Assembly (NCBI RefSeq): GCF_003315205.1 | Contig: NZ_QNRR01000009.1 | Span: forward strand, 1-64,000 | Direction: 5' to 3' | Length of the DNA: 64,000 nt | Source of the DNA: Roseimicrobium gellanilyticum | Lineage (GTDB): Bacteria; Verrucomicrobiota; Verrucomicrobiia; Verrucomicrobiales; Verrucomicrobiaceae | Part shown: one piece after another, positions 55,418-64,000 of the stretch | Layout of the letters: every line of letters starts with the position of its first letter | Position numbering within the stretch: the first letter of the stretch is position 1 | The notes under the pieces: generated by a model | Seen by the model: the letters and a program-made list of their open reading frames with translations, nothing else | Told to the model about the DNA's origin: nothing | Databases searched by the model: none | Translations under genes and position numbers: made by a program

Positions 55418-55915
55418 TCACGCGGTCGCGTCCGCTGCATCGCCCTCTTCGTCTTCATCATCGTCCGGGCAGCCCAGGGGTTTCCGGAAATAGGTGAGCA
55501 GATCCTGCTCCACTTTACCAGGCAGCAGAAGGTCGATGCTGCCCGCTTCGTCATCCGCATGCAGCTGGAACCATTTGCTCTTGAACGCGCCCGCCTGCTC
55601 CTCCACCCACGTCACGCTCGACCACGGCAGCAGGAAGGGCTCATGAAAACTCCGGAAGAGAATCACCACGGAAAAATGGATGCCCTCCTCTGCAAAAACC
55701 ACCCGCACCACTCCCTGATACCTCCCGCTTTGAAAATTGCTGGTGGAAACAGTGTACCTGCGACCCATGGGCGGGTGTGTCGCCGGGTACTTCACGGCAA
55801 AGGCATGCCACCCCTTGCGCGAAACGACGTATCCCGACGCTATCCACGCACAGATGAAGAGCGGGACAAACCACAGGAGTGAACCCAACGGCATCTCGGC
55901 CAGAATCGGAAGCAT
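55418..55915 (-). CDS. Membrane-anchored paralog A of the FLLPW family
   Basis: A 165-residue protein: one or two N-terminal membrane helices (about 8-33), then RKGWHAFAVKYPATHPPMG, VVRVVFAEEGIHFSV, HEPFLLPWSSVTWVEE and a C-terminal IDLLLPGKVEQDLLTYF. The tail is acidic (DDDEDEEGD). It is one of five related sequences at 55-61.5 kb. The compact beta-rich core recalls PH-like or pleckstrin-type small domains, but this is only by pattern. The function is unknown. The ATG at 55915 is preferred over a GTG one codon upstream. Confidence 0.7.
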   Translation of the reverse strand: MLPILAEMPLGSLLWFVPLFICAWIASGYVVSRKGWHAFAVKYPATHPPMGRRYTVSTSNFQSGRYQGVVRVVFAEEGIHFSVVILFRSFHEPFLLPWSSVTWVEEQAGAFKSKWFQLHADDEAGSIDLLLPGKVEQDLLTYFRKPLGCPDDDEDEEGDAADATA

Positions 55916-56224
55916 CACGTGAATGAAGTAGCCCGTTCTCCCATGCTATCAACCTTCACCCACTGAAACAGCGCCTAAGCAGATCGTGTCGACACCGTCA
56001 CCCGGTGCATCCCCACAAGCCCAAGGACCGGGAACGCCTCGTTCCCGCACGATTGAGCTGAACCCCGCGAGCGTACGTCGCAGGCACCGCCACCTCCCTC
56101 CGGGCATTTTCTTTTTCGCGTCTCTTTGCGGCCATCTCCTCTGCAACAAATCACCCACACGGCAAGAAACCTGCAATTCCCGCACATCCCCACCCGTCAC
56201 ACTCTCACCTCCACGGACAAACTC

Positions 56225-56288
56225 CCCATCTCCCCATCTCCCCATCTCCCCATCTCCCCATCTCCCCATCTCCCCATCTCCCCATCTC
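56225..56288. repeat. Tandem 8-base repeat upstream of the methyltransferase
   Basis: Eight perfect copies of CCCATCTC end 22 bases before the methyltransferase start codon. Slippage here would change promoter or leader spacing. It sits in the 395-base gap 55916-56310, which shows no gene. Confidence 0.85.
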
Positions 56289-56310
56289 CGCGTCTCCACC
56301 ACTCCCCGTC

Positions 56311-57327
56311 ATGCTCAATCCCTCTCCCATCCTCCAGACCGCCTTCGGCTTTTGGAATTCCAAGGTCCTCCTCACCGCCGTCGAGTTCGGCCTCTTCACC
56401 ACACTCGCCAATCGCCGTCTCACCGGTGCCGAGCTCGCCGACGCCCTGCAGCTCCACCCGCGTGCCGTGCCGGATTTCTTCGATGCGCTCGTGGCCATGA
56501 AATTCCTCGACCGCGATGGCAACGGCCCGCAGTCGCGCTATTTCAACACGCCAGAGGGCGACCTCTTCCTCGTGGAGAGCAGCCCGCGCTACATCGGCGG
56601 CATCCTCATCATGCTCAATGCGCGCCTCTTCAAATTCTGGCACGACCTCCCCGAGGCCCTGCGCACCGGCAAGCCGCAGAACGAAATCAAACACAACCAG
56701 CGTGGCATGTTTGAGGAGCTCTACTCCGACCTCCCCCGCCTGGAGCAGTTCATGGGCGCCATGACCGGCCTCTCCCGCATGAACTTCGAGGCCTTCGCGG
56801 AAAAGTTCGACTTCACCCCTTATCGCACCCTCTGCGACATCGGCGGCGCCACCGGCCTGCTCTCCACCGAGGTGGCAAAGCGTCACCCCCAGCTCCAGTG
56901 CACCAGCTTCGACCTGCCCGAGGTGGAGCCCATCGCGCAGAAGCACATCGCCGCCACCGGCCTGACCGACCGCGTGAGCACCGCGCACGGCGACTTCTTC
57001 AAGGACCCCCTGCCCAAGGCCGACATCATCACCATGGGCATGATCCTCCACGACTGGAACCTGGAGAAAAAGAAACACCTCATCCGCGCCGCCTACGAAG
57101 CCCTCCCTCCCGGTGGCGCGTTTGTGGCCATCGAAGCCCTCATCGACGACGCCCGCCGCGAGAATGTGCAGGGCCTCCTCATGTCGCTGAACATGCTCAT
57201 CGAGTTCGGCGACGCCTTCGACTACTCCGGCGCCGACTTCCGCGAATGGTGCACCGAGGCCGGCTTCACCCGTTTCGAAGTCATCCCCCTCGCCGGTCCC
57301 TCCAGCGCCGCCGTGGCCTACAAATGA
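56311..57327 (+). CDS. SAM-dependent O-methyltransferase (dimerising, Methyltransf_2 type)
   Basis: A 338-residue methyltransferase resembling plant caffeate/hydroxyindole O-methyltransferases. The N-terminal dimerisation winged helix (AFGFWNSKVLLTAVEFGLFT, then LTGAELADALQLHPRAVPDF) precedes the catalytic domain: CDIGGATGLLSTEVAKRHP (SAM loop, about 176-182), TSFDLPEVEPIA, HGDFFKDPLPKADI and ILHDW with the expected catalytic His. The ATG at 56311 matches the usual N terminus. It likely methylates a small hydroxylated molecule; no biosynthetic cluster surrounds it. Confidence 0.88.
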   Translation: MLNPSPILQTAFGFWNSKVLLTAVEFGLFTTLANRRLTGAELADALQLHPRAVPDFFDALVAMKFLDRDGNGPQSRYFNTPEGDLFLVESSPRYIGGILIMLNARLFKFWHDLPEALRTGKPQNEIKHNQRGMFEELYSDLPRLEQFMGAMTGLSRMNFEAFAEKFDFTPYRTLCDIGGATGLLSTEVAKRHPQLQCTSFDLPEVEPIAQKHIAATGLTDRVSTAHGDFFKDPLPKADIITMGMILHDWNLEKKKHLIRAAYEALPPGGAFVAIEALIDDARRENVQGLLMSLNMLIEFGDAFDYSGADFREWCTEAGFTRFEVIPLAGPSSAAVAYK

Positions 57328-57388
57328 TGATATAACCAGAACGGCTACACCACATCCCACCTTCCAGCACCCCGAAGGCACCCAGCTT

Positions 57389-57414
57389 CAAGGAGCGGCA
57401 CTAGCCTAGTGCCG
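57389..57414. repeat. Single REP-like hairpin (GGCACTAG type)
   Basis: CAAGGAGC followed by GGCACTAGCCTAGTGCC: the same head as other repeats with a different, fully complementary stem. It lies between the methyltransferase and the next paralog. Confidence 0.65.
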
Positions 57415-57605
57415 GTGGTCGGCAAATAGGGGTGCGGAGCCTCTCTCTTCAAAAATCCACCACTCCACCCTCTTGCCCCTCCTGCGTCTCTTTGCGGCCA
57501 ACCACTCCACCACTCCTCATCCCACCCCGCTCTCAGTCTCCTTGCCTCTTTCTCTCCGTATCTCCGCGTCTCCGTATCTCCGCGTCTCCGCACCACACCA
57601 CCCCC

Positions 57606-58160
57606 TCACTCACTCCTCGACTCACGCACCGCCACTTCCTCCACCTCCGTCTCCCCCTTCTCCCCCTCTGGCTTCTCACCCGTCTCCTTCGGATACGCTT
57701 TCTTCGCCGGAGGCACCTGCAGCATCGGCTTGTAGTACTTGAAAAAATCCTCCTGCGCCGCCTTGGACAGACACAGGCGGATGGGCCCCTCGGCATCTTC
57801 GATGTCCACCAGCAGGTTCCGGTTCGGCACGAAGCCACCCTTCTTCTTCACCCGACGCACACTCGTCCACGGCAGGAGAAACGGCGGATGAAACAACCGC
57901 ACCACAATCGGCGGGTGAAAGTAGATGCCCTCCGGCGCAAAGACCATCCACACCAGGTTCCGGTACCAGCCAAAGAGCTCAAACTTTACCCACGGCACCC
58001 GATGCGCCTTCCCCGCCGGCCGCACCTTCGCCCGGTACTTCCGGCCAAACCACAGCCACCCCATGCAGGAGAGCAGCAGGCAACCACCCAGCCACGCGCC
58101 AATCAGGGTCAGCGGGAAAAACACCCGAAGGTCCTGCAGCATGGGCGGGAGTGATGTCAT
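57606..58160 (-). CDS. Membrane-anchored paralog B of the FLLPW family
   Basis: A 184-residue protein with an N-terminal membrane region (about 15-36), then RKYRAKVRPAGKAHRVPWVK, WMVFAPEGIYFHPPIVVRLF, HPPFLLPWTSVRRVKKKGGF and IRLCLSKAAQEDFFKYY. The C terminus is a charged, probably disordered tail (PKETGEKPEGEKGETEVEE). It is the second complete member of the dispersed family. The ATG at 58160 is used; a TTG four codons upstream is possible. Confidence 0.68.
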   Translation of the reverse strand: MTSLPPMLQDLRVFFPLTLIGAWLGGCLLLSCMGWLWFGRKYRAKVRPAGKAHRVPWVKFELFGWYRNLVWMVFAPEGIYFHPPIVVRLFHPPFLLPWTSVRRVKKKGGFVPNRNLLVDIEDAEGPIRLCLSKAAQEDFFKYYKPMLQVPPAKKAYPKETGEKPEGEKGETEVEEVAVRESRSE

Positions 58161-58295
58161 TGCGATTTGCAAAGAATCACGTCGGCTCCCATACCCCTGT
58201 CAACACAACCCCTTGACACTAAATCCTTCTTCAACGCGCCCTCTACCCCTCTCCGGAAACCACACGCCGCCAAGGACTTGGCGCACCCCCGCATG

Positions 58296-58410
58296 GTGGT
58301 CCACCCACTCCAGGTGCGGCCCTCACCTAGTCACCCTGCGGAGACATCCCTCGCGTCTGCGCGTCCCAGACCCCTCCCTCCATGAGCGGCTGCTTTAGCT
58401 GCCGAAGCCT
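58296..58410. repeat. Degenerate copies of two REP families before the lipoprotein gene
   Basis: A GTGGTCCACCCACTCC-type unit (58297 on) and GAGCGGCTGCTTTAGCTGCC (58384 on) correspond to the two halves of the composite repeats at 59959, 60371 and 61050, in reverse order. They lie in the 305-base gap 58161-58465. Confidence 0.45.
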
Positions 58411-58465
58411 GGCCCCTTCCCAAGACGTCTCCACCCATGGTAGGGTGGCGCAACTCTCTCCTGCC

Positions 58466-58930
58466 ATGGCTTCCTACCCCACTCTGGCGAAGGCACTTCT
58501 TCTGGGCGCCCTCACCCTGCTGCACACGCAGTGCACCTCCTTGCGGCCCACTGGCGATTCTATCCCGGGGGAAGGCCGACAGGTCCTCGTCGCGGGCTAC
58601 CTCACCGGAGACCCGCGCGACAGTTTCCGGCTGCGCAAGCCGGTGCACACGGAGGAAGACGCCCGCAAGTCCTTCTCACAGTGCGGCGACCTCCTGGCCA
58701 GCCGCTATGACGATTGCTATTTCTACAAAAGTTCGGTGAGAGTCACATGGAAAGCAGACCAGCAACTCTTCGTCGGCACCGGCAGTGCCCTCTTCCACAC
58801 ATACGGGCAGATTCGCTATGAGATGCGCGTGAAGAAGGGCGGCACCCTCTTGAAATACCACGAGACCATCGAGAACCGCGTTCCCAAGCCGAAGCCGAAG
58901 CCGAAGCCGAAGCCCAAGGACTGGGACTAG
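58466..58930 (+). CDS. Small lipoprotein-like protein with Lys-Pro repeat tail
   Basis: A 154-residue protein with leader MASYPTLAKALLLGALTLLH and Cys23 (HTQCTS), a weak lipobox. The middle (KSFSQCGDLLASRYDDCYFY, TWKADQQLFVGTGSAL) is mixed alpha/beta. The last residues are six Lys-Pro pairs, encoded by a repeated AAGCCG unit, followed by DWD. The tail probably spans the cell wall layer or binds anionic partners. No family was recognised. Confidence 0.6.
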   Translation: MASYPTLAKALLLGALTLLHTQCTSLRPTGDSIPGEGRQVLVAGYLTGDPRDSFRLRKPVHTEEDARKSFSQCGDLLASRYDDCYFYKSSVRVTWKADQQLFVGTGSALFHTYGQIRYEMRVKKGGTLLKYHETIENRVPKPKPKPKPKPKDWD

Positions 58931-58982
58931 GGCGGTTTGAGGTACAGCGTGGCCATTTTCGTCTTGGGGTAGCAACAACCCT

Positions 58983-59092
58983 GGCACCACTGTGGCTGCG
59001 ACCGCTGGTCGCGGTGCGGTGCGCTAGCAACACCCCTGGCACCACTGTGGCTGCGACCGCCGGTCGCAGTGCGGTGCGGTCCGGTGCAATAC
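58983..59092. repeat. Two tandem 55-base direct repeats
   Basis: Units 58983-59037 and 59038-59092 both start GGCACCACTGTGGCTGCGAC and contain the hairpin GCGACCGCYGGTCGC. A GTGG tetranucleotide precedes the hairpin as in the REP families nearby. Confidence 0.75.
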
Positions 59093-59176
59093 AGTGCGGC
59101 AAGTCACCCCTGATCCTCAGCCAGGACTTCAGTCTCCCCACTCCAAGGGGTCAAGGACACTGGTAGTTCCCTGCCC

Positions 59177-59692
59177 TCAGACATTTTCCACCGGCCGCAC
59201 CGGCTCCCGCAGCGCCAAAAAGTATTTCAGCAAATCCTGCTCCACGCTTTTGCGCAGCCACAGATGCATGGTGCCCACGGGATCCATCACATCGACATGG
59301 ATGGACTGCCCGAGAAGAAAGCTGTCCTTCTTCTCCACCCGCCGCACACTTTCCCAGGGCAGCAAGAATGGCGGATGACACAGCCGGAACGGAAACCACA
59401 CACAGAAGTAGACCCCCTCCTCTGTCAGAATCACCCTCACCACATTCTTGTAGGGGCTGACGGGACTCCAACCCATCGTCGCCTTCACCGCAGTATGCGC
59501 TCTCCCTGCGGGCCGGGTTGTTGCCGGATATCTTCCCGCAAACCTCCGCCAGTCCCAGGAGACAACGAAGCTGGCGCTCAGCCATAAAACCACACCGGTG
59601 AGTGCCAACCGCGGCCACACCTCTCCGAACCCTGAAGCGGGCACGCTCGACGGCGACGTCGCCAGCAGCAGAAGCGGGAATATTGGGTCCAC
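59177..59692 (-). CDS. Membrane-anchored paralog C of the FLLPW family
   Basis: A 171-residue protein: hydrophobic start (FPLLLLATSPSSVPASG, then LALTGVVLWLSASFVVSW), RRFAGRYPATTRPAGRAHTA, NVVRVILTEEGVYFCVWFPF, HPPFLLPWESVRRVEKKDSF and WLRKSVEQDLLKYFLAL. It is the closest to the family consensus. The start is uncertain: the GTG at 59692 gives a normal hydrophobic N terminus; an ATG at 59809 would add 39 residues unlike the siblings. Confidence 0.65.
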   Translation of the reverse strand: MDPIFPLLLLATSPSSVPASGFGEVWPRLALTGVVLWLSASFVVSWDWRRFAGRYPATTRPAGRAHTAVKATMGWSPVSPYKNVVRVILTEEGVYFCVWFPFRLCHPPFLLPWESVRRVEKKDSFLLGQSIHVDVMDPVGTMHLWLRKSVEQDLLKYFLALREPVRPVENV

Positions 59693-60433
59693 AGGCGGAC
59701 TATCACGTACCCCGGATTCTCTTGTCAAGGCACCTGCATCCGGCCGATGCCCTCGGCCCCATCCGCTCAGCAACCAGGAGCCACTTTCCTCGAAAACATC
59801 CTCGGCCAAAGCTTCCCCTACCCCCCTGACGAATCTGACAAACCTGATGCTTTTTCACTAAACTCCCCAGCTTTCTTCTCTCCTGAAAAACTCTTGGAAA
59901 TCCCGTCAGTTTCGTCAGGGTACCAAGGCAACGGCTGGCCAATCACCGAACTCACCTCCCAAGGAGCGGCTGCTTTAGCTGCCGAAGCAGGTCCACCCAC
60001 TCCGCTGCGCGGTCAGTCACCCCACCCCCTTCCCCCCTCTTTGCGTCTCTTCGCGTGGAACCCTCCCCCTTCAACCAACCAAGAACGAAGAACCAAGGAC
60101 CAACAACATCCCCGAATGCACCCGACCATGAGGAAAATGGCAAACAGGGGGCCATTTCCATAAACCCCTCCGCTTCCTTCCATTCTCAGAACTCTGTGGA
60201 ATCACCCCATATCCACCATGTTTCCCATGGCCACCCTTTCCAGAGTGACGGAAATGACGAAAGTAACCGTGCTCCAAAAAGTTTGTAGGGCAGAATTCTG
60301 TAGAGAATACTTTTGGGAAAAGCGTCATGATTGTCACCACCGTCACCCGGCCATGGGAGCAGGTCACGCCCCAAAGGAGCGGCTTCCCGCCCTGAGGGAT
60401 ACCGACGAAGTGGTCCGCCCACTCCGTGTGCGG
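59693..60433. other. 741-base stretch without a gene, with composite REP-like repeats
   Basis: No supportable gene. Composite repeats at 59959-60016 and 60371-60437 combine CCAAGGAGCGGCTGCTTTAG-type and GTGGTCCGCCCACTCC-type units. At 60062-60110 the sequence is purine-rich (AACCAAGAACGAAGAACC), similar to 61180-61200. Confidence 0.55.
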
Positions 60434-60985
60434 TCAGTAGGCACCATCCCCCTTGAGCCCCTTGCGTCTCCCCACGGCCAACCCCTCAGTCCCAAGAATC
60501 GGGGGCACTCCTGCCCCCGCATTCATTCCCCCGACGTAGACGGCCTGGCGGAAGGTACTGCACAACTCCTGTTCCACCTCCACCTTCCCCGGCAGCCACA
60601 GTTCCATCGACCCCGCCTCGCCCGCGCCCTCCACCACCACGTGGTAGTAGCGCCTGCGAAACAAGCCCTTCAGTTCCTCCACCCGCCGCACACACTCCCA
60701 GGGCAGGAGAAACGGCGGATGAAAGGGGCGGCAGAGGAACTGCATGTGCAGGTACAGGCCTTCCTCGGCGAACACCACCCGGGCAGCGTTCTTGTACGAC
60801 GCCATCGTATCGCCAAACCGCACCCCCGGCACCTTGTAGGATTTCCCTGGTGGGCGATGCGCAACCGGATACGCACGGGCAAACGCCTTCCACCGGGGCG
60901 AAATGAGAAACCAAAAGACCAGGAATCCGCCCACAGCCGTCATGGGGAAACAAAGGTCCCAAGGCAGGTCATCAGTCGCAGGCAT
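60434..60985 (-). CDS. Membrane-anchored paralog D of the FLLPW family
   Basis: A 183-residue protein: MPATDDLPWDLCFP, membrane segment (TAVGGFLVFWFLI), RWKAFARAYPVAHRPPG, NAARVVFAEEGLYLHMQFLC, HPPFLLPWECVRRVEELKGL and MELWLPGKVEVEQELCSTF. The last 30 residues are encoded by a REP-like hairpin (near 60489-60524) and do not match the siblings, so a repeat has replaced or extended the end. Starts at 60985, 60991 and 61006 are all possible. Confidence 0.62.
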   Translation of the reverse strand: MPATDDLPWDLCFPMTAVGGFLVFWFLISPRWKAFARAYPVAHRPPGKSYKVPGVRFGDTMASYKNAARVVFAEEGLYLHMQFLCRPFHPPFLLPWECVRRVEELKGLFRRRYYHVVVEGAGEAGSMELWLPGKVEVEQELCSTFRQAVYVGGMNAGAGVPPILGTEGLAVGRRKGLKGDGAY

Positions 60986-61049
60986 GGCCATCCATACCGG
61001 CGTCATTCGAATAAGACAAGCCAAGTGGGCAATCTACGAGGGCAATGTC

Positions 61050-61106
61050 CCAAGGAGCGGCTGCTTGAGCTGCCGTCAAAGTGGTCCGCCCACTCCGTGT
61101 GCGGTC
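61050..61106. repeat. Composite REP-like repeat beside the truncated paralog
   Basis: CCAAGGAGCGGCTGCTTGAG, then GTGGTCCGCCCACTCCGTGT: the same two-part composite as at 59959 and 60371, in the same order. Confidence 0.65.
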
Positions 61107-61204
61107 CGTTGGCACCACCCCTCTGGAACCCTTTCCCGTCCCTCTGCGGCCAACCGTCCCCTCTTCAAAAAAACCAAGAACTAAGAACCAAGAACACTCC
61201 TCAA

Positions 61205-61457
61205 CCTCCTCCCGCCGCCTCTCTGCCTTCCTGCATTTGCGCACCGTCTTGCTCGAAAGGCGCGGCTGCTTCCCCAGCCTCTCCGCAAACGCACTCCATC
61301 CCATCCGCGACAAGCCGAAGCAGATGCCCAGCCACAGGGCGACAAGGCCGAGCAAAATCAGGGGCCAGTAGTTTTGGAGGGGGACAGCGAGGAGAGAATG
61401 AGCAAAGAGAGCTGTGGTGATGATGCCCAAGGCACCCGATTGAGGTCTGCGCGTCAA
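61205..61457 (-). pseudogene. Truncated remnant of the FLLPW family
   Basis: About 60 residues can be read (YWPLILLGLVALWLGICFGL, then SRMGWSAFAERLG), matching the N-terminal membrane segment and GWxxFAxxY element of the other members. There is no ATG start, and after KCRKAERRREE the sequence runs into repeat DNA instead of the FLLPW core. It appears to be a broken fifth copy. Confidence 0.5.
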
Positions 61458-61512
61458 GGGTGCAGTCGAAGTACGAGCCTACCCTGACGGTACTCTCGTT
61501 CGCATCAACTCA

Positions 61513-61923
61513 TTAGTGTCGCAGCCAATTCCAGATTTGCTGCCACACACTGGGGTTAGAAGGTGTGGAAGGCTCTTGGGGTTCGATTGTTTCGCTCTCG
61601 GCAACTCCATCACTTGATTCCGCTGGCTCACTTGAAGGTTTCTCCTCCCGAGAATCGTCCCATGAAGGACACCATTCTGCACGACTGCGCCTAATCCAAT
61701 AGTGTGACCGACATGGGAAGCGCCAGTTGCCGATAGATGGAGTCAGCGACAGCGACTCACCATCAAAGTAGAGCTGCCAATCTGTCGGAGACAATGGTGT
61801 CACCACTTCCCGACCACAGCCGCAACAGCAAAGATGCATCACCGTGCAATGCTCAATGGAAACGTACAGAGTGTTCCCCTCGAGCGCTTCAGGCATCTGT
61901 TTCACGAATCGAAGGTCGAGCAT
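61513..61923 (-). CDS. DUF6527 family protein, part of the ubiquitin-like operon
   Basis: A 136-residue protein. The core matches DUF6527: MLDLRFVKQMPEALEGNTLY, then MHLCCCGCGREVVTPLSPTD and SIGNWRFPCRSHYWIRRSR. Cysteines 34 and 36, Cys71 and His74 probably bind zinc. The C-terminal 45 residues are Ser/Glu/Pro-rich and end in WQQIWNWLRH, which could be an amphipathic helix. From memory, this family accompanies multiubiquitin and E1 genes in bacterial ubiquitin-like (Bub-type) operons, where a protease/deconjugase role has been suggested; this could not be verified here. It overlaps the E1 gene by 35 bases. Confidence 0.82.
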   Translation of the reverse strand: MLDLRFVKQMPEALEGNTLYVSIEHCTVMHLCCCGCGREVVTPLSPTDWQLYFDGESLSLTPSIGNWRFPCRSHYWIRRSRAEWCPSWDDSREEKPSSEPAESSDGVAESETIEPQEPSTPSNPSVWQQIWNWLRH

Positions 61924-63085
61924 ATTCGCCGAGAAGGAGATTATCGTTAATCGAGTATACAGTGTGGTGTTCCTCCTCAAAGTCTTGGTAGAACCCACAG
62001 AGCTTCTTCCACTTCAACACAGCAAGCGCAGCATTGAGCATGTTCAGTTCAGCAATCTGAATATTGGTGTGATAGTCATCATTCCGGGCTTCCTGAAATG
62101 AGACAACTTTCCCGAAGTGCTCCCGATTCGAAGGTGTGCTCGCTGTCACGCGAACGCTGCCCAGAAGCTTCCCATCACACACTTGTATTCCCATCCCAAC
62201 ATCAATGAATGACTTCTCTCTGGACTCCAGAAAATCAACAATGACTGCCCTCGCAGGCCCATCATCAACGCAGATAAATACGAAATCGAGCTGTTCCAAC
62301 TCGTGTACGTTCTCTGCGTGAATCAATTCCTCATGCGGGACAATGTGCTGACGCATCCGACCGTAGATGTCCGAGAAGTAAGCCACCTTGGGTTGCGGTA
62401 ACTCTAGCTGCTGCAGTGTTGGAGCCCCAGGAGACCTAAAAGCGTTGTGTTGCGCAAATGGGTCGACATCGAATAGATGGATCTCAGCGACGGGTGTCTT
62501 TGCCACTAAGTCGAGCACATACGAGCCGGTGCCACCCAGGCCAATAATCCCAATCCTAAGACCTTTGAGCTTGGCGCTGATCGCTTCAATCTCTCCACGG
62601 CTGGAGTTGGTATCAAGATAGTAGAAGACTGAGTCATTGGCCGTGGAAGGGATCACGCGAAATGTTGTCGCGGTGGCTTTTTCGTCGATAGACTTGGCTG
62701 GTGCCGAGATGATCTCGATGTACCGCGTCACTTTCTCATAATAGTCAGGATATCCCTCCTTGGGTTTGTTCGAGAAAGAATGCTCCACAACCAACCCCTC
62801 CATCAGCTGCTTCCGCTCACTGGCGTGCGTAATCGGCGAGATGACCCTTCCATCGCGATTGCACGGATGGGCTCCGATAAAGTGGATCACATGCGTCCTT
62901 GGCTTGGCAGTGCGATTACCTGCCAGGTCCAAGTCCGACACGAGTATTCCATACAGAACCTTCTTGTTCTGGTCTACGTAGGGAACATGACTGACCAGCA
63001 GGTACGAGCCGCGAACTTCCACCTCGTACCCCTCGTTTCTGAGACGCCGGAGGTCCGGACTAAGATCTATCAGTTGCTCGGACAT
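61889..63085 (-). CDS. ThiF/E1-like adenylating enzyme with extra N-terminal domain
   Basis: A 398-residue enzyme. Residues about 1-160 form a separate domain of the kind placed before ThiF in such operons (DUF6791-like), with HFIGAHPCNRDG at 68-79. The E1/ThiF domain follows: GIIGLGGTGSYVLDL (nucleotide loop 182-187), LFDVDPFAQHNAFRSPG with Asp206/Asp208, Asn214 and Arg217, then FVFICVDD (Cys272) and FIDVGMGIQVCDG (Cys303). One of these cysteines may be the thioester site. It would adenylate the ubiquitin-like protein C terminus. It overlaps the multiubiquitin gene by 26 bases and DUF6527 by 35. Confidence 0.85.
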   Translation of the reverse strand: MSEQLIDLSPDLRRLRNEGYEVEVRGSYLLVSHVPYVDQNKKVLYGILVSDLDLAGNRTAKPRTHVIHFIGAHPCNRDGRVISPITHASERKQLMEGLVVEHSFSNKPKEGYPDYYEKVTRYIEIISAPAKSIDEKATATTFRVIPSTANDSVFYYLDTNSSRGEIEAISAKLKGLRIGIIGLGGTGSYVLDLVAKTPVAEIHLFDVDPFAQHNAFRSPGAPTLQQLELPQPKVAYFSDIYGRMRQHIVPHEELIHAENVHELEQLDFVFICVDDGPARAVIVDFLESREKSFIDVGMGIQVCDGKLLGSVRVTASTPSNREHFGKVVSFQEARNDDYHTNIQIAELNMLNAALAVLKWKKLCGFYQDFEEEHHTVYSINDNLLLGEYARPSIRETDA

Positions 63086-63800
63086 TGAAGTTCATTCCAC
63101 ATTTTACTTTCACGACATCACCAGCAACCATGGTGCCCTTGGGCTTGTGGTCTGGTCCTTTGCTGTAGGTAACCGTGTATGCTGTGTTCGGGTCTGGCGA
63201 CCCGATTCCAAGCTGTACGACTTCCTCATATGAAATCAGCCGAGAGGTCACGACTCGCTCGCGACCATTAATGACGATTGTTATACCCTTGGTTTGGCGT
63301 GTATAAAACACGGGGCCATCACCGAAAAAGGCCGAATCTCCATCCTCAATAGGCGAGTCATGCGGAGACTCATAGTCACGGAAGAGGTCTTTCTGGCAAT
63401 CCAATCCAAACCAGTCACGAACGGTCCTACCAGACTGGTCGGGACGGATGGTGATTTCGACCCCGTCGTCCACGGAATATGCCAGTTTGGGAGGTGCTGT
63501 GCACTGGCCACGAGGTTTCAAGTCGCACAGCGGTACAGAGTAGAAGACATTGCCCTGTGCGAGATCAACGACTGCATCGTCAGCAAACACCGGGTCTTCG
63601 GGGGAGTTGTGATCGCGAACAAGCGCATGGGCCTCTGGGCTATTGCCCTGCGTCTTCAGCACTTTGACCAAAACTCGTCTTTGGGGAGTAGGAATCCTCA
63701 CATCGTTGATGTGAGCAAACCATTTGGCGCCCCTTTGAGAGTTCGAGCGGTCTTCTGAAGAGTGCACTGGATGCTGAGGTTCGATAAGTGGGGTATTCAT
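63060..63800 (-). CDS. Multiubiquitin-domain (polyubiquitin-like) protein
   Basis: A 246-residue protein. The C-terminal domain (about 172-244) is a clear Multiubiquitin-type beta-grasp: KGITIVINGRERVVTSRLIS, YEEVVQLGIGSPDPNTAYTV, and KPKGTMVAGDVVKVKCGMNF. Two earlier segments (about 30-110 and 112-170) look like diverged copies, with VFYSVPLCD and VEITIRPDQSGRTVRDWFG. It ends in ATDRS, not a di-glycine, as is usual for this family. It probably serves as the modifier activated by the E1-like enzyme downstream. A 49-residue-plus basic protein gene precedes it. Confidence 0.85.
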   Translation of the reverse strand: MNTPLIEPQHPVHSSEDRSNSQRGAKWFAHINDVRIPTPQRRVLVKVLKTQGNSPEAHALVRDHNSPEDPVFADDAVVDLAQGNVFYSVPLCDLKPRGQCTAPPKLAYSVDDGVEITIRPDQSGRTVRDWFGLDCQKDLFRDYESPHDSPIEDGDSAFFGDGPVFYTRQTKGITIVINGRERVVTSRLISYEEVVQLGIGSPDPNTAYTVTYSKGPDHKPKGTMVAGDVVKVKCGMNFNVRATDRS

Positions 63801-63849
63801 TTTCAGGAGTTCGAGGTAGTGTTGTTGTTCTTATTTTGTTGAGGTGTTG

Positions 63850-63999
63850 TCAGTGTTCACGCCTCACACCCTTGAAGGGCTTTGTGTCCGACTTTTGGTC
63901 GAGAAACCGGCCAGTCTCGATGTCACGCTTCACGTACCTGCGTGTATGGGGGTTCAATACTTGGGACCGGTTCCGGACAGCGCCCTTACGGTGGCCGTC
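63850..63999 (-). CDS. Small basic protein (partial), upstream of the multiubiquitin gene
   Basis: The C-terminal 49 residues of a gene cut by the right end of the window: DGHRKGAVRNRSQVLNPHTR, then RYVKRDIETGRFLDQKSDTK and PFKGVRREH, followed by TGA at 63852-63850. It is highly basic with few hydrophobic residues. I recall similar short basic proteins beside multiubiquitin genes but cannot name the family. The gap to the multiubiquitin start is 49 bases. The 5' end lies beyond 64000. Confidence 0.65.
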   Translation of the reverse strand, partial: DGHRKGAVRNRSQVLNPHTRRYVKRDIETGRFLDQKSDTKPFKGVRREH

Positions 64000-64000
64000 T

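Follow-up and report, generated by a model that had tools for sequence, protein, structure and literature searches.

A compact JAB-less Bub-type operon in Roseimicrobium gellanilyticum, a predicted ubiquitin-like conjugation system

The window that we analyzed, a stretch of 64,000 nucleotides (positions 1-64000 of a 324,891-base contig), carries at its edge a real and intact operon of the Bub type without a JAB domain. Its core consists of a ubiquitin-like modifier (Ubl), an E1-like enzyme with an N-terminal DUF6791 domain and a DUF6527 protein. Judging from the sequence, the operon most likely represents a DNA-damage-inducible Ubl conjugation system.

Organization of the operon

The preliminary description had reported four minus-strand genes, encoding in order a small basic protein, a multiubiquitin protein, a ThiF/E1-like enzyme and a DUF6527 protein, with overlaps of 26 and 35 bases between the last three. 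All these open reading frames are present and both overlaps were found (Table 1); the length of 35 nt follows from a DUF6527 start at the ATG at 61923, as homologues indicate. The ThiF/E1-like and DUF6527 identities were confirmed by Pfam profile matches, and the product whose multiubiquitin identity had been offered as a refutation test indeed matches Multi_ubiq. The small protein corresponds to the PADLOC defence candidate PDC-S38 (5.3e-32, covering 56 of 57 positions) and has homologues beside two other operons, between capS and the Ubl gene in L013 and downstream in L017.

The Ubl, DUF6791-E1 and DUF6527 genes are adjacent and in the same order in all 28 loci that were compared, which span at least five phyla. 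In each of these loci the E1 and Ubl genes overlap by exactly 26 nt, counted from the E1 start to the last base of the Ubl stop codon, a feature that was not seen in the canonical Bub operons examined. Conservation of both the core trio and the overlap in 28/28 loci places this operon far beyond chance.

Table 1. Features of the operon and of its divergent region.
Feature	Position	Strand or orientation	Evidence
57-aa basic protein, matches PADLOC PDC-S38	63850-64023 (window edge cuts ORF at 64000)	minus	ORF and PADLOC
Ubl modifier, 246 aa	63060-63800	minus	Multi_ubiq PF14452 1.9e-12 (Pfam)
Ubl/E1 gene overlap, 26 nt	63060-63085	minus	same length in 28/28 homologous loci
DUF6791-ThiF protein, 398 aa	61889-63085	minus	DUF6791 5.2e-61, ThiF 1.5e-11 (Pfam)
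DUF6791 domain, N-terminal	residues 10-159 of DUF6791-ThiF protein		Pfam 5.2e-61
E1-type adenylation domain	residues about 165-388 of 398-aa protein		ThiF
E1/DUF6527 gene overlap, 35 nt	61889-61923	minus	start codon taken from homologues
DUF6527 protein	61513-61923; open frame to 61998	minus	Pfam 3.4e-24
HTH protein (HTH_3), capH	64124-64594	divergent from operon	Pfam and PADLOC (1.8e-12)
M78 peptidase (Peptidase_M78), capP	64591-65520	divergent from operon	Pfam and PADLOC (1e-22)
Palindrome TTCATTTAAATGAA	64086-64099	divergent region	TTCATNNNNATGAA pattern
Palindrome TTCATTTTGATGAA	64140-64153	divergent region	TTCATNNNNATGAA pattern

The modifier and its E1-like enzyme

The part of the Ubl that matches Multi_ubiq is its last beta-grasp domain, and two further beta-grasp domains can be recognized by eye upstream of this match. 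Across the 28 loci, the region preceding this domain may be missing altogether or may hold up to about two additional beta-grasp-like stretches. The two C-terminal beta-grasp domains of the window Ubl match the ZDHYS365 multi-ubiquitin domain protein of PDB 9cd2 (2.9e-12), a homologous Ubl of the JAB-less type with a similar terminus (...TDKS) but with a diverged sequence of 222 aa. The window Ubl ends in ...FNVRATDRS, and its last residue is a Ser in 28 of 28 DUF6791-type loci. In contrast, separate canonical Ubls mostly present a Gly at or near the C-terminus, and the canonical BubA construct stops at position 229, which is occupied by Gly in the Citrobacter homologue. Since both termini of the window-type Ubl are fixed, we read the modifier as being made mature, with no trimming required.

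The adenylation residues of the E1 domain are invariant (GxGGxG at 182-187, D206, D208, N214, R217, K233 and D274). The best fold matches of the predicted structure (pLDDT 84.8) are eight Citrobacter BubCD chains (E 4.7e-14 to 3e-13), headed by the Bub E1 of PDB 9ea5 (4.7e-14); UBA5, ATG7 and MoeB rank lower, and MccB is also in the list. Profile-profile comparison of the E1 and BubCD families (hhalign) gave 2.3e-20, and the PADLOC E1-E2 models matched the adenylation core only (about 1e-5). Because the ThiF/MoeB fold is held in common, the enzyme could in principle activate a ThiS/MoaD-like sulfur carrier for thiamine or molybdopterin synthesis. This is highly improbable: the Ubl has no C-terminal Gly-Gly, no genes of either pathway lie beside the operon, and a whole-genome profile search found another strong ThiF-family gene elsewhere in the genome. 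Moreover, the NCBIfam models of ThiF (5.3e-7) and MoeB (0.0011) scored far under their cut-offs on the E1 protein, as compared with 8.6e-174 for the NCBIfam model PRK06153.1-4. A grouping of the ThiF protein with cofactor enzymes, named in the preliminary description as grounds for refutation, did not occur, and the E1 fold is closest to that of Bub E1.

No Cys is invariant among the 28 sequences of the DUF6791-ThiF protein, the best being C75 (25/28). C272, which was invariant in a set of 16 sequences, was rejected as a catalytic Cys: five of the 28 carry a Ser at this position (L008, L024, L026, L027 and L031). Tyr338 is present in all 28 and is placed by hhalign on BubCD Tyr370, a residue kept in nine of nine canonical sequences and mutated to Phe in PDB 9eav. 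D104 and Y370 are the mutated BubCD residues in PDB titles, D104 lying within the JAB motif region. An enzyme that adenylates without conjugating, either by modifying the Ubl C-terminus with a nucleotide in the manner of MccB or by adenylating a Ubl that serves as a scaffold or filament, would agree with the lack of an invariant Cys, the lack of a Gly C-terminus and the presence of MccB among the fold matches. We nevertheless regard it as improbable, as the order of these matches favors Bub E1, the Bub Tyr is conserved and DUF6527 is common to canonical Bub.

The DUF6791 domain and the DUF6527 protein

The preliminary description had seen no separate E2 gene, and this absence holds nearby and across the genome. 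Indeed, whole-genome profile searches returned no match to Prok-E2_E in the host genome, nor in four other genomes with a DUF6791-type operon (in a search that gave no match anywhere), and no JAB above the cut-off in the host genome (two weak matches). Inspection past position 64000, which had been recommended, revealed homologues of the PADLOC capH and capP models; neither an E2 nor a JAB gene turned up near the operon, including this region beyond the window edge.

The predicted order of elements in DUF6791 (helix, four strands, loop, helix) resembles that of the E2/RWD fold. Its FSxKP matches the [WF]S.H of Prok-E2_E by eye, and full-length hhalign gives the same register. Profile-profile comparison with Prok-E2_E was null at first and reached P 0.05 with deeper alignments. 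Alignments with shuffled columns scored as high in 17 of 400 cases, and those with shuffled blocks in 44 of 300, which is too often for us to accept the sequence match as proof of an E2. The identification of DUF6791 as a JAB was also rejected, the profile comparison with the JAB domain being null. S83 was discarded as an E2-like nucleophile as it is not conserved; the conserved polar residues are H65, S105 and K107.

In the part of their article considered here, Iyer et al. 2006 (PMC1779556) speculated that the domain in this region is a functional replacement of JAB. DUF6791 would then act in processing or removal and not as an E2, and the E1 would conjugate alone or with another E2. DUF6791 indeed occupies the JAB position N-terminal to the E1, and both its conserved polar residues and the failed sequence test for an E2 are consistent with this alternative. 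We consider it unlikely, given the null comparison with JAB, the E2/RWD order of the predicted elements and the fixed stop codon of the Ubl, which leaves no extension to trim. Our own suggestion is a tentative one: the DUF6791-E1 protein may do the work of both E1 and E2 via oxygen esters, on Tyr338 and perhaps on Ser105, with a Ser-ended modifier born mature and no processing peptidase.

The DUF6527 residues C57, C61, P87, S88, C96 and H99 (numbered on the 161-aa open frame, 61513-61998) were found in 42 of 42 sequences covering both operon types. DUF6527 gave no sequence match against the PDB, and the fold search returned nothing below E 1. We propose that this protein is a putative Ser-His hydrolase or deconjugase with a Cys-rich site. 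In 2026, Ye and colleagues reportedly described Bub operons as involving oxyester intermediates and as containing a family of Ser-His proteases; this lead would fit both Y338 and DUF6527 S88/H99.

Control region, distribution and related systems

The divergent capH/capP pair forms a predicted DNA-damage switch; past capP lie a TetR gene and then a membrane-fusion efflux gene, both of normal GC. The two palindromes are the only TTCATNNNNATGAA sites in 20 kb and both are located in the divergent region (expected 0.02, for a pattern chosen post hoc). Palindrome TTCATTTAAATGAA falls inside a promoter-like match oriented towards the operon, the only one in the region that was scanned; the number of such matches was not above chance. 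Cap-like neighbors were present in 13 of the 23 loci having enough upstream sequence: eight CapP-like, four CapW-like and one CapK/S-like. Among published Bub operons, 219 of 544 carry CapW or CapH together with CapP, and anti-phage protection was not shown (PMC13373217).

Other genes were observed upstream of related operons. In Klebsiella (L030:1792-5187), a large protein combining an M78 (CapP-like) peptidase, a UvrD helicase and a PD-(D/E)XK nuclease is encoded directly upstream of the Ubl gene. A homologous protein occupies the same place in three further DUF6791-type loci (L026, L028 and L029), and one upstream of the Ubl gene in the canonical Bub locus L038 was assigned by similarity. 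Upstream of the operon of a Runella plasmid (L024:1097-3502), an 801-aa protein presents a weak Piwi match (4.5e-4, below the cut-off); its gene adjoins a PD-(D/E)XK nuclease gene, perhaps as an Argonaute-type defence operon.

Records encoding the E1 number 115 among plasmids and 15 among genome contigs, and 5 of 388 genomes of the host phylum have it. Of 95 pattern matches in viral contigs just two are relatives, so the operon is not common in this collection by pattern search. The island 61513-65520 has a GC-content of 51.1%, relative to a contig mean of 60.5% (sd 2.2%; 2.5-kb windows across 100 kb of contig), and the lowest-GC 2.5-kb window of these 100 kb begins at 62501. In the E1 tree, the window E1 groups with Bacteroidota rows and not with same-phylum rows, with support (91/75) below the starred level. 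The low GC and the patchy distribution support the earlier suggestion of transfer, and the operon was probably transferred horizontally.

Elsewhere in the window, four related 48-nt stretches are spaced by 1.3-2.2 kb within 55600-61460. Two of them lie in ORFs 59177-59809 and 60434-61024, which look alike and have no Pfam match. Runs of the 8-nt unit CCCATCTC and its variants lie in a C-rich stretch at 56185-56337 and 57509-57621, and GC skew is strong across 52-62 kb.

The Citrobacter-type Bub system (PDB 9ea4, 9ea5, 9ea8, 9eae and 9eav) shares with the window operon the gene order Multi_ubiq, ThiF, DUF6527, as well as the E1 fold, the E1 Tyr, the invariant DUF6527 residues and the upstream Cap regulators. 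The plasmid operon from Citrobacter that encodes the E1 closest to the BubCD structures carries CapK- and CapS-position genes, Multi_ubiq fused to Prok-E2_E, JAB-ThiF and DUF6527, whereas the window operon has neither Prok-E2_E nor JAB and presents DUF6791 in the place of JAB. With DUF6791 instead of JAB and no JAB above the cut-off in the genome, we do not file it as canonical Bub, and extrapolation from canonical Bub may fail for a JAB-less system with a Ser-ended modifier. Two canonical operons carry a phosphotransferase gene between E1 and DUF6527 (L037:4849-6297 and L070:4303-5907). Bil and Type II CBASS Cap2/Cap3 also combine an E1-activated modifier or target with a defence context, but the window has no separate E2, JAB or cGAS-like gene.

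The closest description is operon type 6e (the fifth type) of Iyer et al. 2006 (PMC1779556). In the part of that article considered here, the E1 of a subset has an uncharacterized N-terminal domain replacing JAB, and the type includes a Cys/His protein and a Ubl whose repeat number ranges from one to three. All three features are found in the window operon, which is a member of this JAB-less variant first noted in 2006; the system is therefore not an unknown one. The same part of the account predates the DUF names and makes no mention of the Tyr, the Ser terminus, the Cap regulators or the host phylum. Relative to it, the new elements are Tyr338 without an invariant Cys, the Ser terminus, DUF6527 Ser88/His99, capH and capP with the palindromes, and the GC-content. 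In the accessible literature, we found no account of the JAB-less form working without E2 or JAB.

We consider it likely that the window encodes a compact JAB-less Bub-type conjugation operon, and propose the following cycle for it. Upon DNA damage, ssDNA would lead CapP to cleave CapH, opening the divergent promoter. The E1 domain would adenylate the C-terminal Ser of the Ubl, which would then be moved onto E1 Tyr338 as an ester, in place of a Cys thioester. DUF6791 of the same polypeptide would replace the E2 and hand the Ubl to its target, and DUF6527 (Ser88-His99) would undo the modification. The modification and removal system that had been proposed at the outset is supported. The observations comprise the gene content, the family membership, the conserved residues, the fold match between this E1 and Bub E1, the capH/capP homologues and the palindromes; every catalytic step, with modification and removal, is inferred, as are the targets and a purpose in defence or stress response.

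The JAB-less form is widespread, both plasmid-borne and chromosomal, and its interest lies in its operation without E2, JAB, conserved Cys or Gly terminus. Y338, S105, the Ser that ends the Ubl, DUF6527 S88/H99 and DNA-damage induction make the mechanism directly testable. If the tentative reading of one polypeptide doing both E1 and E2 work is true, this would be a three-protein Ubl cycle without Cys chemistry and without a Gly terminus, smaller, to our knowledge, than the characterised ubiquitin-like cycles.
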